From Levilactobacillus tangyuanensis (GTDB lineage: Bacteria > Bacillota > Bacilli > Lactobacillales > Lactobacillaceae): 44,591 nucleotides of DNA. Of the stretch, positions 10,440-37,962 are shown piece by piece. How positions within the stretch are numbered: the stretch's first letter is position 1; each line of letters begins with the position of its first letter. The DNA is taken from NCBI RefSeq assembly GCF_003946545.1, contig NZ_RHOA01000015.1, positions 1 to 44,591 of the forward strand, in the 5' to 3' direction. Both the position numbers and the translations under genes were made by a program. Below the pieces are notes generated by a model. The model was not told where the DNA came from and ran no database searches. It saw only the letters and a list, made by a program, of their open reading frames with translations.

Positions 10440-10602
10440 CGGCTGGTCGCTCTGCTCCGGCTGCCAGGGCCGGAACGTGGTGGCCACGATTTTAAGCCCG
10501 GCAACCCACCGGTCTTAAAACTCGGGCTTTTCCTAATCCGGCCCAACCCGCCGAATAAGGAAAACGACACCACTGAGCCCTGGCCGCCTCCGCGGCGCTG
10601 AC
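10440..10602 (+). repeat. Dispersed structured element, copy 1 (+)
   Basis: Closing stem GGGC (10467-10470) with GCCC (10577-10580) and GTGGTG with CACCAC. Hairpin 1 has TTTTAAG / CTTAAAA arms and the CCGGT cap with bulged T. Hairpin 2 has TTTTCCTAA / ATAAGGAAAA arms with the central A-A mismatch. A 3' GGCCGCCTCCG tail follows. Lies between the response regulator and the small plus-strand gene at 10753. Confidence 0.8.
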
Positions 10603-10752
10603 ACTTACCAGTGAAGGCGGCAGCATACACCACCTCTAATCACCTCACTCGATGGTTCCATCGTCGGCCGCACTTTCCAGTAGGTAACGATTGGCATTTA
10701 GCCTTGACGCTTCTACACTGGCGGCAAAACGAGTGAATGAGGAGGCCTTTTT

Positions 10753-10929
10753 ATGAAATCACCACGTACCACGGTCATCATCCTCGCTTGCCTTGTCGTC
10801 CTGGCCGCGTTTGTTTCCTTCCCGATTGAACACACCGCGTTCGGTAAATTTGTCGAGGTCGCCATGGTCCTAATCATTGTCATCGTGGCCAACTTCCACA
10901 AATTCCAACACTGGCGGCATCAACATTAA
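10753..10929 (+). CDS. Small two-helix membrane protein (58 aa)
   Basis: A 58-residue open reading frame not overlapping other genes, with AGGAGG 7 nt before the ATG and an intrinsic terminator directly after the stop, which together make it a real gene. It encodes two hydrophobic helices (about residues 7-23 and 34-47) with a positively charged N-terminus (KSPR) and a histidine-rich tail (HKFQHWRHQH). I recognise no family. It is the only plus-strand gene between 2 kb and 38 kb, in a stretch otherwise transcribed leftward. Confidence 0.75.
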   Translation: MKSPRTTVIILACLVVLAAFVSFPIEHTAFGKFVEVAMVLIIVIVANFHKFQHWRHQH

Positions 10930-10933
10930 TGGC

Positions 10934-10973
10934 TAACGCCAAGTGGTCAGACTTCTGACGCTTGGCTTTTTTT
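10934..10973 (+). terminator. Intrinsic terminator of the 58-aa gene
   Basis: Stem GCCAAG + GTCAGA with TCTGAC + CTTGGC, followed by TTTTTTT on the plus strand. Confidence 0.88.
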
Positions 10974-11112
10974 GTCGCAATCAATTGGCCATTACCGTGA
11001 TAACACTTACTGACGAGAGTAAAAATCACAGACCTGTTGAACCATCCCCCCACTAACCACTAACCGATGCAGGACCAATCGGTAACGACTATTGACCCGT
11101 GGATCTCAACCA

Positions 11113-11260
11113 GAGGGCGCCGGGAGGGGGGCTCAGCCGTGGAACTGCCTTAGTGGAATGGTTTTCTCCGCTTAGGCAGAACTGACCTTTGAGACCGCTC
11201 TTTGGCTCAAAGTCATGTTCACCGCGTTCCAGCCCCCAGCACGGCAACCGGCGGTTGCCA
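11113..11260 (-). repeat. Dispersed structured element, copy 2 (-)
   Basis: Closing stem GGGGGGCT / AGCCCCC, hairpin arms CTGCCTTAG / CTTAGGCAG (T-T mismatch on this strand, A-A on the other) and CTTTGAG / CTCAAAG, and an edge hairpin GGCAACC-GGC-GGTTGCC (11243-11259). It lies just beyond the guaB terminator and is nearly identical to copy 8. Confidence 0.85.
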
Positions 11261-11275
11261 AATCCAACCAAGATA

Positions 11276-11307
11276 AATAAAAAGGTCGATTCCCAGTGGA
11301 ATCGACC
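11276..11307 (-). terminator. Intrinsic terminator of guaB
   Basis: A perfect 10-bp stem (GGTCGATTCC / GGAATCGACC) with a 4-nt loop, then TTTTTATTT on the minus strand. Confidence 0.9.
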
Positions 11308-11319
11308 CGTAAAACAGAA

Positions 11320-12459
11320 TTATTTGTAGTTAGGTGCGGCCTTCGTGATTTGCACATCATGTGGATGTGATTCAATCAAACCGGCATTGGAAATCCGGAC
11401 GAATTGCGCATCGTTGATTAGGTCTTGAATCGTGGCGCTACCGGTGTAACCCATCCCGGAACGCAGGCCACCAACCATTTGGAAGATGATATCGTTAACG
11501 CTACCCTTGTATTCAACCCGGGCTTCGATACCTTCTGGAACCAACTTGTTGGCTTCGTTCACGCCGCCTTGGAAGTAACGGTCGGCGGAACCGTGTGACA
11601 TGGAAGCTAAGCTCCCCATCCCACGGTAAGTCTTGTACTTCTTACCACCGTCTTCGATGACGTCGCCAGGTGCTTCGTCGGTCCCGGAGAACATGGACCC
11701 AAACATCACAGCGTTACCACCGGCGGCGATCGCCTTCACGATGTCCCCGGAGTACTTCATCCCACCATCGGCGATGATTGGCTTGCCAAAGTCACGGGCC
11801 ACGGCGGCAGCATCATAGATGGCCGTCAATTGAGGAACCCCGACACCGGCAACGACCCGCGTCGTGCAGATTGAGCCGGGGCCAATCCCAACTTTAACCA
11901 CGTCGACACCGGCTTCGAACAGTGCCCGGGTACCTTCACCCGTAGCAACGTTCCCGGCAATCAGCGTGGCTGCTGGGAAGTGGTCGCGAATCTCGGCAAC
12001 CTTACGCAGCACCCCAGCAGAGTGACCGTGCGCCGTGTCGATGATGATCGCATCGGCACCGGCATCGAGCAACGCTTGGGCCCGATCGAAGGTATCGGAG
12101 GTGACCCCAACGGCAGCGGCGACTAACAAGTGGTTGTTAGCATCGACGGCCGCAACGGGGAATTTCTTAGCATCATTTTCGATGGCCTTAACTTCGGCGA
12201 CCATTTTTGCCTGGTCGGCGGCGCTCATGTTCTTGTGGATGACGCCCAGCCCACCATTGTGAGCCATTGCAGTCGCCATCTTGGTCTCGGTGACCGTATC
12301 CATCGAGGCACTTAGAAATGGAACGTTCAACTTGAGGTTCGGGGCTAATTGGACACTTAAATCGACTTCATTCGGCAAAACGTGACTCTCGGCAGGAATT
12401 AACAAAACATCATCAAACGTGAATCCTTCTTTAGCAAACTTGGTGTCCCAATTAGACAT
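11320..12459 (-). CDS. guaB: IMP dehydrogenase, short form without CBS domain
   Basis: Catalyses the NAD-dependent oxidation of IMP to XMP, the committed step of GMP synthesis. The catalytic loop [11 protein letters not shown] carries C198; the IMP-binding DGGMKYSGD and the flap [10 protein letters not shown] are present. At 379 residues it is about 110 shorter than the usual 490. The missing part is the pair of CBS domains that would be inserted near residues 90-110; the barrel itself is complete, so the enzyme should be active. AGGAG precedes the ATG. A promoter lies at 12525-12553 and a terminator at 11276, so it is a single-gene unit. Confidence 0.95.
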
Positions 12460-36767: not shown

Positions 36768-36797
36768 GTCGGGTATCTCCTTATGACAAGTTCGGTA

Positions 36798-36828
36798 AAT
36801 AAAAAGCATCAGCTTGTCAGCTGGTGCT
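36798..36828 (-). terminator. Terminator of the gene at 36837
   Basis: Stem AGCACCAGCT / AGCTGATGCT with loop GACA, then TTTTTATTT on the minus strand. Confidence 0.85.
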
Positions 36829-36836
36829 AGCTCTAA

Positions 36837-37103
36837 CTAGATTAACATAAGCGTGACGCCCTTGATGGGAGTCAGGCTATCGCCGAGGTCACCGAAAATC
36901 AATGGCTTCTTGAAGACCGCTTGATCCAATTCGACGAGGTTCGTTTTTTCAATCGTTAGATGATAACGGCCATGCCGGTCCCGACGAAGTTCGTAGTTCA
37001 CGAAACGTTGTTCGGGGGCGTAATTCGCGAAGTGCGCGGCATAATGGCCGAGCTGATGGGATACAACTAGACGAATCCCGTTTTCATCTTCAAAGATATG
37101 CAA
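36837..37103 (-). CDS. Uncharacterised small soluble protein (88 aa)
   Basis: TTG start with TAGGAG 9 nt upstream. The protein is soluble, rich in H, R and Y in its first half (GHYAAHFANYAPEQRF, ELRRDRHGRYHL) and hydrophobic at the end (GVTLMLI). No domain recognised. A terminator follows directly, supporting a real gene. Confidence 0.6.
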   Translation of the reverse strand: MHIFEDENGIRLVVSHQLGHYAAHFANYAPEQRFVNYELRRDRHGRYHLTIEKTNLVELDQAVFKKPLIFGDLGDSLTPIKGVTLMLI

Positions 37104-37370
37104 AATTGTTCACTCCTATATTAATTAGAACTGCCGCTACCGGGCTAGTCACTTTCAGCCGCGGTAGCTGCGCTAAGTTCTTAAACCACTCAGCGTCGCT
37201 AACGCGTTCCTCTTTGTGTTCTGATTGTACCATACTTACTTAAAAAAATTTAGTGGGTGCCAAAACTCCCTTAAAATTCATGATGTTTTGACCAATAACT
37301 CTTGTTGTCGGCGGTTAACAATGATTCAATATTAAGTAGACGGTTTTCGTGACCAGACAGTTGGTGGTGG

Positions 37371-37520
37371 TTGGCTCGCCTGCGGCGGCCAGGTTTCGCG
37401 CTGTGGGCACGATTTAGAGCCAAAGAGCGGTCTCTAAACTCGGCCATGCTCTAAGTGGGAAAAATCCCCCACTAAGACCATTGTCACTGCGCTTCACCTA
37501 GCCGCCTCCGGCTTCTGATC
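37371..37520 (+). repeat. Dispersed structured element, copy 13 (+), diverged
   Basis: Closing pairs AGGT-TTC-GCGC-T-GTG with CAC-T-GCGC-TTC-ACCT, hairpin 1 TTTAGAG / CTCTAAA, hairpin 2 CTAAGTGGG / CCCACTAAG with A-A mismatch. The GGAAC strand of other copies is replaced here together with its partner, so pairing is kept. Confidence 0.78.
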
Positions 37521-37620
37521 GACCTCTATAGCCACCAAAAGCCTTTAGCCATCTACGTTAGCGGGCAATTTTGCTAATATTATTTCACAAATCTCCACCT
37601 ATTATAGAAATAATATTTAC

Positions 37621-37777
37621 GGACGAGTTAATCGTGCCCCACTGATAAGGCACAACTGCTATGATGAGAGCGACCCATTGGCTTGAGATAGTCACCTGAT
37701 TTTCCGGAATAAGCGGAGAATCTGACTGAGATAAAGAGTTTACGTCCATTAGGGCAAGCTCACCGCCCTATTTTTTT
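37621..37777 (+). ncRNA. Candidate structured RNA with terminator
   Basis: GGACG (37621) pairs with CGTCC (37743). Inside are GTGCC...GGCAC and a long arm AGTCA / TGACT stacked on GATTTTCCG / CGGAGAATC (37698-37722). It ends in a terminator (TAGGGC / GCCCTA then seven T, 37750-37777). It could be a small RNA or a leader of the gene at 38016. No known riboswitch core recognised. Confidence 0.45.
37750..37777 (+). terminator. Intrinsic terminator
   Basis: Stem TAGGGC / GCCCTA with 9-nt loop and TTTTTTT on the plus strand. Confidence 0.8.
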
Positions 37778-37812
37778 AATCAGTTTTCACTATGATTAAG
37801 TCAACGGTATAC

Positions 37813-37962
37813 AGGCAGCTCGCCCCCAGCCCGGGCTCAGCCGTGGCACTGCCTTAGGGGAGTGCCCTTCTCCGCTTAGGCAGAACGGACCTTCAAGACC
37901 GCCTTTCGGCTTGAAGTCCTGTTCACAGCGTTCCAGCCCATCAGGGCTGGGGGCGAGCGAGA
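37813..37962 (-). repeat. Dispersed structured element, copy 14 (-)
   Basis: Closing stem GCTCGCCCCCAGCCC (37818-37832) with GGGCTGGGGGCGAGC (37944-37958), a perfect 15 bp. Hairpin 2 CTGCCTTAG / CTTAGGCAG and hairpin 1 CTTCAAG / CTTGAAG. It lies 54 nt before the start of the gene at 38016, in its leader and in opposite orientation. Confidence 0.85.

Follow-up and report, generated by a model that had tools for sequence, protein, structure and literature searches.

The folded element scattered between the genes of this stretch, about 110 bases long and conserved in shape, probably serves as the terminal part of small mobile DNA units and not as a gene switch, because the same fold is found at the tail of a known kind of insertion sequence (IS). 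The best reading is that the fold is a structured module at the end of a subgroup of ISLre2 elements, scattered as MITE-like units, and we consider it fairly likely that the copies are dispersed, non-autonomous pieces of ISLre2-family IS, whose transposases are DDE enzymes of the Mutator superfamily.

Fourteen folded copies in the window

An earlier note on the window, i.e., the whole stretch of 44,591 nt analysed here, had claimed at least 14 copies of one structured intergenic element and suggested a covariance-model search and a comparison with Rfam. With a covariance model built from 9 of the 14 copies (R1), every one of the 14 positions was recovered as a copy of the folded element. The nine model copies score 97.6-119.9 bits, which is high by construction; c13, outside the seed, still scores 75.1 bits, whilst 18.9-35.6 bits are reached by the four extra-hairpin copies (16800-, 17195+, 17466+ and 20289-), which are not in the seed either. 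No fifteenth copy was found in the window with R1 at E <= 1: the only two further matches are opposite-strand ones within c10 and c11, so the count is exactly 14. Rfam gave no match at gathering score for the window, the IS or the G129 loci described below, and a riboswitch or other Rfam RNA was rejected on this ground. The copies, referred to as arms, are as follows.

c1: 10467..10581, minus strand; three-way-junction arm (R1 104.9 bits)
c2: 11128..11235, plus strand; arm, divergent partner of c1 (R1 113.5 bits; orthologous copy in G034)
c3: 16800..16894, minus strand; arm with extra hairpin, folded stretch 16770-16955 (R1 27.1 bits; fold)
c4: 17195..17304, plus strand; extra-hairpin arm, folded stretch 17165-17365, divergent partner of c3 (R1 35.6 bits; fold)
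c5: 17466..17577, plus strand; tandem duplicate of c4, folded stretch 17436-17636 (R1 28.0 bits; repeats D5, D6)
c6: 20289..20408, minus strand; extra-hairpin arm, folded stretch 20240-20430 (R1 18.9 bits, E 0.0025; fold)
c7: 20737..20851, plus strand; arm, divergent partner of c6 (R1 97.6 bits; orthologue in G034 strongly changed)
c8: 20991..21098, plus strand; arm (R1 113.9 bits)
c9: 27873..27980, minus strand; arm (R1 104.6 bits)
c10: 31089..31205, minus strand; arm (R1 107.0 bits)
c11: 31450..31559, plus strand; arm, divergent partner of c10 (R1 119.9 bits)
c12: 36140..36252, minus strand; arm (R1 99.0 bits)
c13: 37391..37500, minus strand; arm without the CA/GUUCC loop, not in the R1 seed (R1 75.1 bits)
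c14: 37832..37939, plus strand; arm, long closing stem at about 37818-37958, divergent partner of c13 (R1 109.7 bits; fold)

The fold consists of a closing stem interrupted by a fixed CA/GUUCC internal loop, a hairpin P3 carrying a constant U.U mismatch and a hairpin P4 carrying a bulged A. The copies do share one fold, as had been proposed, but the number of hairpins is three or four depending on the copy (c3, c4, c5 and c6 have the extra one), and the CA/GUUCC loop is missing from c13. Similarly, the constant A-A mismatch described earlier is present, but as the opposite strand of the U.U mismatch in CUUAG/CUUAG. Over 91 nt, the c6 arm and the c3 region are 91% alike (repeat D9). Placement is intergenic, as stated before: c3, c7 and c10 overlap only ORFs of 91-109 codons that we judged spurious, c14 reaches into ORF 37911-38705 only at its mechanically assigned TTG start, an in-frame ATG being available at 38016, and the remaining copies overlap no ORF of at least 90 codons.

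Compensated changes in the stems

An alignment of nine copies (A2) shows a double change in 20 of 39 pairs. In a larger alignment of 93 copies (A3), which was fitted to the covariance model and is therefore biased towards the model's pairing, 97.3% of 3567 pair cells are paired. The corresponding share is 78.8% for shuffles and 30-46% for slid controls, so that covariation exceeds both. Double changes occur at 36 of the 39 pairs in A3, with 690 double-change cells vs 175 in control. The U.U mismatch is 98-99% T, and this mismatch, the bulged A and the asymmetric loop are kept at 89-99%. These data bear out the compensated stem variation claimed earlier and support a single-strand fold under selection in which loops, mismatch and bulge are conserved and stems vary.

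Alternatively, pairing might be kept by mutation rather than selection, with hairpin-templated copying between the two sides making Watson-Crick double changes. The double changes do go from Watson-Crick to Watson-Crick with few G.U or mismatch states, but the persistence of mismatch, bulge and loop at the rates given above, together with the scarcity of double relative to single changes among the 17 orthologous copies discussed below, makes this account very improbable.

The fold inside an ISLre2-family insertion sequence

R1 matches the 3' noncoding part of an ISLca4-like ISLre2 IS on a Levilactobacillus brevis plasmid (76.3 bits, E 7e-21), where the arm lies on the transposase strand and starts 36 nt past the transposase stop codon, as well as an ISLre2-family IS on a Lactiplantibacillus plantarum plasmid (78.3 bits). 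In both, the fold lies past the transposase gene and before the right end, and these matches of a window-derived model amount to homology to part of an ISLre2 IS. The two insertions lie at different sites and are 98.7% alike over 1.74 kb, which defines the IS limits; the IS arm ends 83 nt before the right end. The IS transposase matches NF033529 at 351 bits (cut-off 200), and in one of the two insertions it is split in two frames. Target duplications are absent at both insertions. The earlier note had favoured a selected fold as opposed to an IS; the selected fold stands, but the contrast with an IS fails, as the same fold is part of one.

Ten other ISLre2 records, out of 96 with a match, contain no arm that R1 recognises. 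Of nine ISLre2 3' regions folded, only L250 was similar by eye, and it has no R1 match, even unfiltered. The Loigolactobacillus backii ISLre2 IS has a perfect 9-bp duplication and a by-eye fold at the corresponding place. In the locus stretches searched, no relative of the arm-bearing IS transposase was seen, L249 excepted. Phage records contained no arms (two queries) and viral contigs no match to the transposase; phages do contain three distant relatives of it. When arms were searched against plasmids with blastn, two queries had a match and three did not; plasmid pieces in Lacticaseibacillus and Liquorilactobacillus were rejected as arms, being a cut-off piece with no R1 match. PMC3942029 reports that Mutator-like elements of this kind make direct repeats of 8 or 9 bp, that they insert upstream of sigma-A promoters, and that ISLre2 forms circles (data not shown in that paper).

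Spread and outward-facing pairs

R1 matches occur in 92 of 330 Lactobacillaceae genomes and 14 of 40 genera, with at least 134 and at least 142 arms in two genomes (150 candidates scored in each). The arms are junction-shaped and about 110-145 nt long. Titles and abstract openings in the literature, with subscription journals mostly outside the scope, gave no description of the folded element.

Window neighbours less than 1 kb apart, counted from R1 matches, are (-,+) in five cases, (+,+) in two and (+,-) in none. The same polarity is seen in G023, where 48 of 50 close neighbours are (-,+), in G048 (12, all candidates scored) and in G003 (16, from 30 loci), with zero (+,-) in each. The two orientations of the copies, reported earlier, are thus due to arms forming, for the most part, outward-facing pairs, an arrangement that the earlier note, like the IS-borne fold, had missed. 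A 400-bp unit of G023 is found again at nine other sites, 82-91% alike. We rejected an autonomous element with a gene between its arms: of the wide-gap pairs, those read gene by gene (two in G029, L155 and L156) hold apparent host genes. Separately, G023 has an arm-free stretch at C1:0.93-1.72 Mb, centred on the contig middle. Arm exclusion from the replication terminus was dropped as an idea, with ychF, which we take to be an origin-proximal gene, at 0.55 Mb in G023 and no such gap in G003.

Inverted pairs, and hairpins with a fixed bulge and mismatch, would also suit a REPIN-like element mobilised through ssDNA hairpins by a Y1 (IS200/RAYT) transposase. Of the 35 genomes of the genus, 23 contain Y1_Tnp, but none of the five arm-rich ones does (G000, G023, G025, G032 and G034), on which ground Y1/RAYT mobilisation was rejected; with the G129 units having ISLre2-type ends and one 9-bp duplication as well, it is scarcely credible.

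One-arm units and the ends of the pairs

In G129, from another genus, seven loci each contain one arm (E <= 0.1) and are 83-98% alike pairwise. ISLre2-type end patterns are present in six of the seven, with both ends in three (LE ..GTGTAAAGTTT, RE ..GTGTCAA). The LE of L228 and the RE of L231 are identical to the ISLca4-like ends at 18/22 and 19/22 positions, and to the ends of the L. backii IS at 18/22 and 16/22, respectively. A perfect 9-bp target duplication flanks one of the three units with both ends; the other two have none. The arm ends 74-85 nt before the right end, vs the 83 nt of the IS.

Beside the 10 window arms inspected by eye, no ISLre2-type end was found in the expected orientation; a single TTAGTGTAAAATT string beyond c1 has the opposite orientation. 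Paired units carry other ends (CGCCTTACCGG) than the ISLre2 type, and long G023 units have CTTGAC at their outer ends, which resembles that type only by eye. Target duplications are not in excess among the 32 G023 units (an 8- or 9-mer is shared at 7, with about 5 expected by chance), and comparing G023 with G025 gave no clean empty site, two of the four places being unclean, one lying at a stretch end and one having masked bases. Because the window copies show neither IS ends nor duplications, it is the fold that would link them to ISLre2.

These ends raise the possibility that the arm existed earlier in Lactobacillaceae as an independent structured element and was captured by one ISLre2 lineage, with the Levilactobacillus pairs spread by another route. 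The many genera with arms against one arm-bearing IS lineage found, the other ends and lacking duplication excess of the pairs, and the ten ISLre2 records with no R1 match all fit such a capture. However, the IS and G129 arms share end, orientation and a similar distance from the right repeat, the outward polarity of pairs agrees with right ends, and the L. backii IS has its by-eye fold at the corresponding place; we regard capture as unlikely, though worth keeping in mind.

Resident copies in a second species

Eighteen of 23 copies compared keep their position in L. senmaizukei (G034), while five are deleted, cut down or not alignable there; one copy is strongly changed. By our own reading of the alignment, c1 in G034 is reduced to its outer ends, and of the G000/G034 length differences aligned, those at arms (c1, C32:81965 and C32:84755) resemble deletions leaving element ends. 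At C32:30065 and C32:58568, G034 retains an opposite-orientation arm some 130-240 nt away, as if each lineage had lost one arm of a pair.

Such conserved positions would be expected if each copy were a functional RNA in place, transcribed, regulatory or terminator-like, and kept by the host. In 17 orthologous copies, stems also changed more slowly than unpaired sites (41/1294, 3.2%, vs 58/567, 10.2%; Fisher p 3e-9). Pure decay does not predict this, so the slower stems count against our best explanation. A3 likewise has 111 G.T vs 19 A.C in its paired columns, but two columns, and the reward for G.U built into the model, weaken this excess. Among the orthologues, which were aligned by sequence, single changes show no such wobble preference (15 G.T, 12 A.C; p 0.70), and double Watson-Crick changes number 2 vs 37 single changes. 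These counts, the losses in G034 and the occurrence of arms and pairs alike between convergent, tandem and divergent genes leave a host RNA improbable.

A possible mechanism

Under the ISLre2 end-module reading, the autonomous member has its arm on the coding strand between transposase stop and right inverted repeat, with the 3' side towards the right end, as in the one IS lineage and its two insertions. The small units would keep inverted repeats and arm, with no room for a transposase gene, and would be moved in trans by an ISLre2-type transposase, in line with the ends and the one duplication in G129. The usual Levilactobacillus unit, seen as two outward arms, may have arisen when two right ends became joined in a head-to-head manner. 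The arm is probably needed in cis for mobility, since a compensated arm is retained in units with no transposase gene. Its most likely role would be as a folded single strand, DNA or RNA, that the transposase recognises or that takes part in copying of the excised circle. Resident copies would later decay and be lost by deletion, as partly seen between the two species. The earlier note had set a MITE against a compensated fold; the element is MITE-like and yet compensated, and that either/or therefore fails.

More tentatively, and with doubt prevailing, we suggest that a Mutator-superfamily DDE transposase requires a structured single strand, as cofactor or as end (ncRNA or folded ssDNA), encoded beside the right inverted repeat, and that transposase-less units must keep this module, spreading a compensated fold through Lactobacillaceae. 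A structured single-strand requirement is known for IS200/IS605- and IS110-type systems; we know of none for DDE elements. If a DDE transposase did need a folded strand, this would link two classes of mobile elements whose ways of working are regarded as different. In any case, a structured element new to Rfam and present in this many genera is now tied to a known IS family, and its function is therefore testable by removing the arm. Strong covariation among intergenic repeats can reflect selection for mobility, not a host RNA.

Comparison with known systems

IS-associated structured RNAs include the omega RNA of IS200/IS605-type elements and the bridge RNA of IS110. Like these, the arm is a structured noncoding stretch beside a transposase gene within an IS; unlike them, it is known here from DNA and its transposase is of the DDE type. 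REPINs and RAYT-mobilised REPs, the topic of PMC3116915 and PMC3733652, are similar in forming inverted pairs of structured, non-autonomous intergenic repeats, but REPs are palindromes of 20-40 bp, well short of the arm junctions, and the arm-rich genomes lack the Y1 transposase. Similar to MITEs, arm units are short, multi-copy and mostly intergenic, with defined ends and no transposase. In contrast to MITEs, they carry a multi-hairpin junction maintained by compensation, and in Levilactobacillus they are divergent arm pairs with no target-duplication excess. The ISLre2 family, given as p-MULT 3 of the Mutator superfamily in the extracts of PMC3942029, which do not mention a structured end, differs in that its ten other records have no R1 match and the Levilactobacillus pairs have other ends; nevertheless, its ISLca4-like member carries the fold, and the G129 units share its end type and, at one site, a 9-bp duplication.

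The folded element and its copies in the window

On sequence, the window's species is a Levilactobacillus close to L. senmaizukei, to which one of its proteins has 95% identity. Following the earlier note, we built a covariance model (R1, from nine window copies), and searching with it found a copy of the ~110-base folded element, here called the arm, at 14/14 of the positions named there (c1-c14). RNAalifold applied to an alignment of nine window copies (A2) gave a consensus of 39 pairs, 20 of which show at least one double change. Read on the forward strand, the closing stem P1 is followed by an asymmetric internal loop, whose 5' strand reads CA and whose 3' strand reads GUUCC, and then by P2; the P3 hairpin sets CUUAG opposite CUUAG, giving a U.U mismatch, and the P4 hairpin has two bulges, an A (GAG-A-CC) and a U. 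An extra hairpin is present in all four of c3-c6, which score low with R1 (18.9-35.6 bits), while c13 has an unchanged junction, lacks the CA/GUUCC loop and scores 75.1 bits. Rfam matched neither the window's arms nor those of the insertion sequence (IS) and G129 loci described below.

Other features of the window were as follows.
3415-3562: L20-leader match, below threshold (32.5 bits vs a gathering score of 58.7)
6877-10211: VanRS-like two-component pair adjoining a D-Ala-D-Ala carboxypeptidase-like gene, scoring under the cut-offs of resistance models
14328-15980 and 17653-19287: proteins of 550 and 544 aa, no Pfam match; their DNA is mutually repeated at 74-75% in stretches, with c3, c4 and c5 between
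33232-34038: 268-aa ORF, matching phosphopentomutase models in its C-terminal half only and below cut-off; full-length relatives at seven Levilactobacillus-group loci

Covariation and conservation

Across 64 sequence sources, R1 retrieved 196 matches at E <= 0.01; restriction to 39 of these sources and to E <= 1e-10 gave 93 matches, the window's seed copies among them, which were aligned as A3. Pairing holds in 97.3% of 3567 cells, with double changes in 36/39 pairs (690 cells), against 78.8% paired, 25.4 pairs with a double change and 175 such cells in shuffled controls, and 30-46% paired in slid-partner controls. Because A3 was fitted to R1 it is biased towards the model; A2 is free of such fitting. 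The two alignments demonstrate both the fold and its covariation. Conservation is concentrated in the unpaired columns: the internal-loop sequences CA and GUUCC, the U.U mismatch and the A bulge are 89-99% conserved, and the bulged U of P4 is 87% conserved.

Distribution and pairing

At E <= 0.001, R1 was positive in 37/118 relatives, all 37 of them within the window's family and 33 of them in the genus, of which 35 genomes were searched. The only two without a match there, G022 and G031, both have Y1 transposase matches. A Lactobacillaceae survey at E <= 1e-6 with strict filters matched 92/330 genomes and 14/40 genera. The window's genome holds at least 64 arms at E <= 1 (150 of 225 candidates scored), and three others hold at least 134 (G023; 150 of 361 scored), 142 (G003; 150 of 801) and, at E <= 1e-4, 87 (G029; 150 of 372). 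All nine G003 arms that were folded are of one kind, with an extra hairpin. In G023, positions 930000-1717000 of contig C1 (29% of it) have no arm vs 134 elsewhere among the scored candidates, a gap with no counterpart in G003.

In Levilactobacillus the usual unit is a pair of arms, and the counts demonstrate that these pairs face outward. Neighbours less than 1 kb apart in G023 (n=50) comprise 48 divergent (-,+), one (+,+), one (-,-) and no convergent (+,-) pairs; G048, with 31 arms and 138/138 candidates scored, has 12 (-,+) and no other type; and 30 G003 loci gave 16 (-,+), one (+,+) and no (+,-) once opposite-strand matches overlapping the main match were excluded. Short G023 units are ~400 bp long with ends CGCCTTACCGG ... 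CCGGTAAGGCG, and one of them has nine further sites at 82-91% identity; no excess of target duplications was found at G023 unit flanks. A gene-context survey of 90 units (crude ORF call, low-scoring arms excluded) placed complete pairs in 16 convergent, 22 tandem and 7 divergent settings, and 24/90 units overlap ORFs of 80-119 codons, which we judged spurious.

Change at resident copies

We compared 23 copies, high-scoring in the window's genome, with the L. senmaizukei genome, where five are missing, truncated or impossible to align (three of these inspected in alignment) and one is strongly changed. In the 17 copies remaining without these six, changed sites number 41/1294 in stems vs 58/567 unpaired (p 3e-9), a comparison in which choosing copies by high score favours intact stems in the window's genome; flanks are roughly 15% changed. 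Slower stem change may reflect in situ selection or protection of paired bases against damage. Single changes include 15 G.T and 12 A.C, and there are two double Watson-Crick changes. This absence of a wobble preference counts against a transcript under selection for pairing where copies are resident, and the tight family-wide compensation is therefore best placed in copies that move.

An ISLre2 insertion sequence carrying the arm

In G129, a genome of another genus, seven loci each have a single arm, and the three units with both ends are 305-332 bp long. Searching with G129 ends (GTTAGTGTAAAGTTTCTCTCGG from locus L228, GTAAGTGTCAACTTTTTCTCGG from L231) gave a weak plasmid match (E 1), and from it an ISLre2-family IS was identified on the L. 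brevis plasmid NZ_CP033886.1, where the fold sits 3' of the transposase stop (R1 76.3 bits, E 7e-21). A second insertion, on a Lactiplantibacillus plantarum plasmid, defined the IS limits and has an arm of 78.3 bits. The L228 and L231 ends agree with those of the arm-bearing IS at 18/22 and 19/22. L231 has a perfect 9-bp duplication, as does an L. backii ISLre2 IS with a matching end type; none was found at two other G129 units or at either arm-bearing IS insertion. These loci demonstrate the arm in one IS lineage and, in G129, IS-type ends with one duplication.

Several related plasmid loci were also noted. At L250 2877-3113 (Loigolactobacillus backii plasmid NZ_CP014625.1), an ISLre2 IS with 42% transposase identity has a folded 3' region with a CUUAG/CUUAG hairpin by eye, and no R1 match there. 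L246 4830-5330 (plasmid NZ_CP080339.1) holds a cut-off piece of a G129-type arm that adjoins a gene annotated as an IS5-family transposase and lies upstream of an operon for an ABC transporter; a similar stretch is present in Liquorilactobacillus plasmids. To the left of the IS, a stretch of 68 bases (L249 729-796) recurs without it at L260 1-68 (97%) and may be one end of a different element.

The best reading of the arm is as an end module of an ISLre2 subgroup; the main rival is an older element that was captured by the IS. As an end module, the arm would be required for mobility, Levilactobacillus pairs would be two right ends, the transposase would act in trans, and the working form could be DNA or RNA. 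According to PMC3942029, Mutator-like elements of ISLre2's group generate 8- or 9-bp direct repeats, circular ISLre2 forms are stated with data not shown, and ISLre2 inserts upstream of sigma-A promoters.
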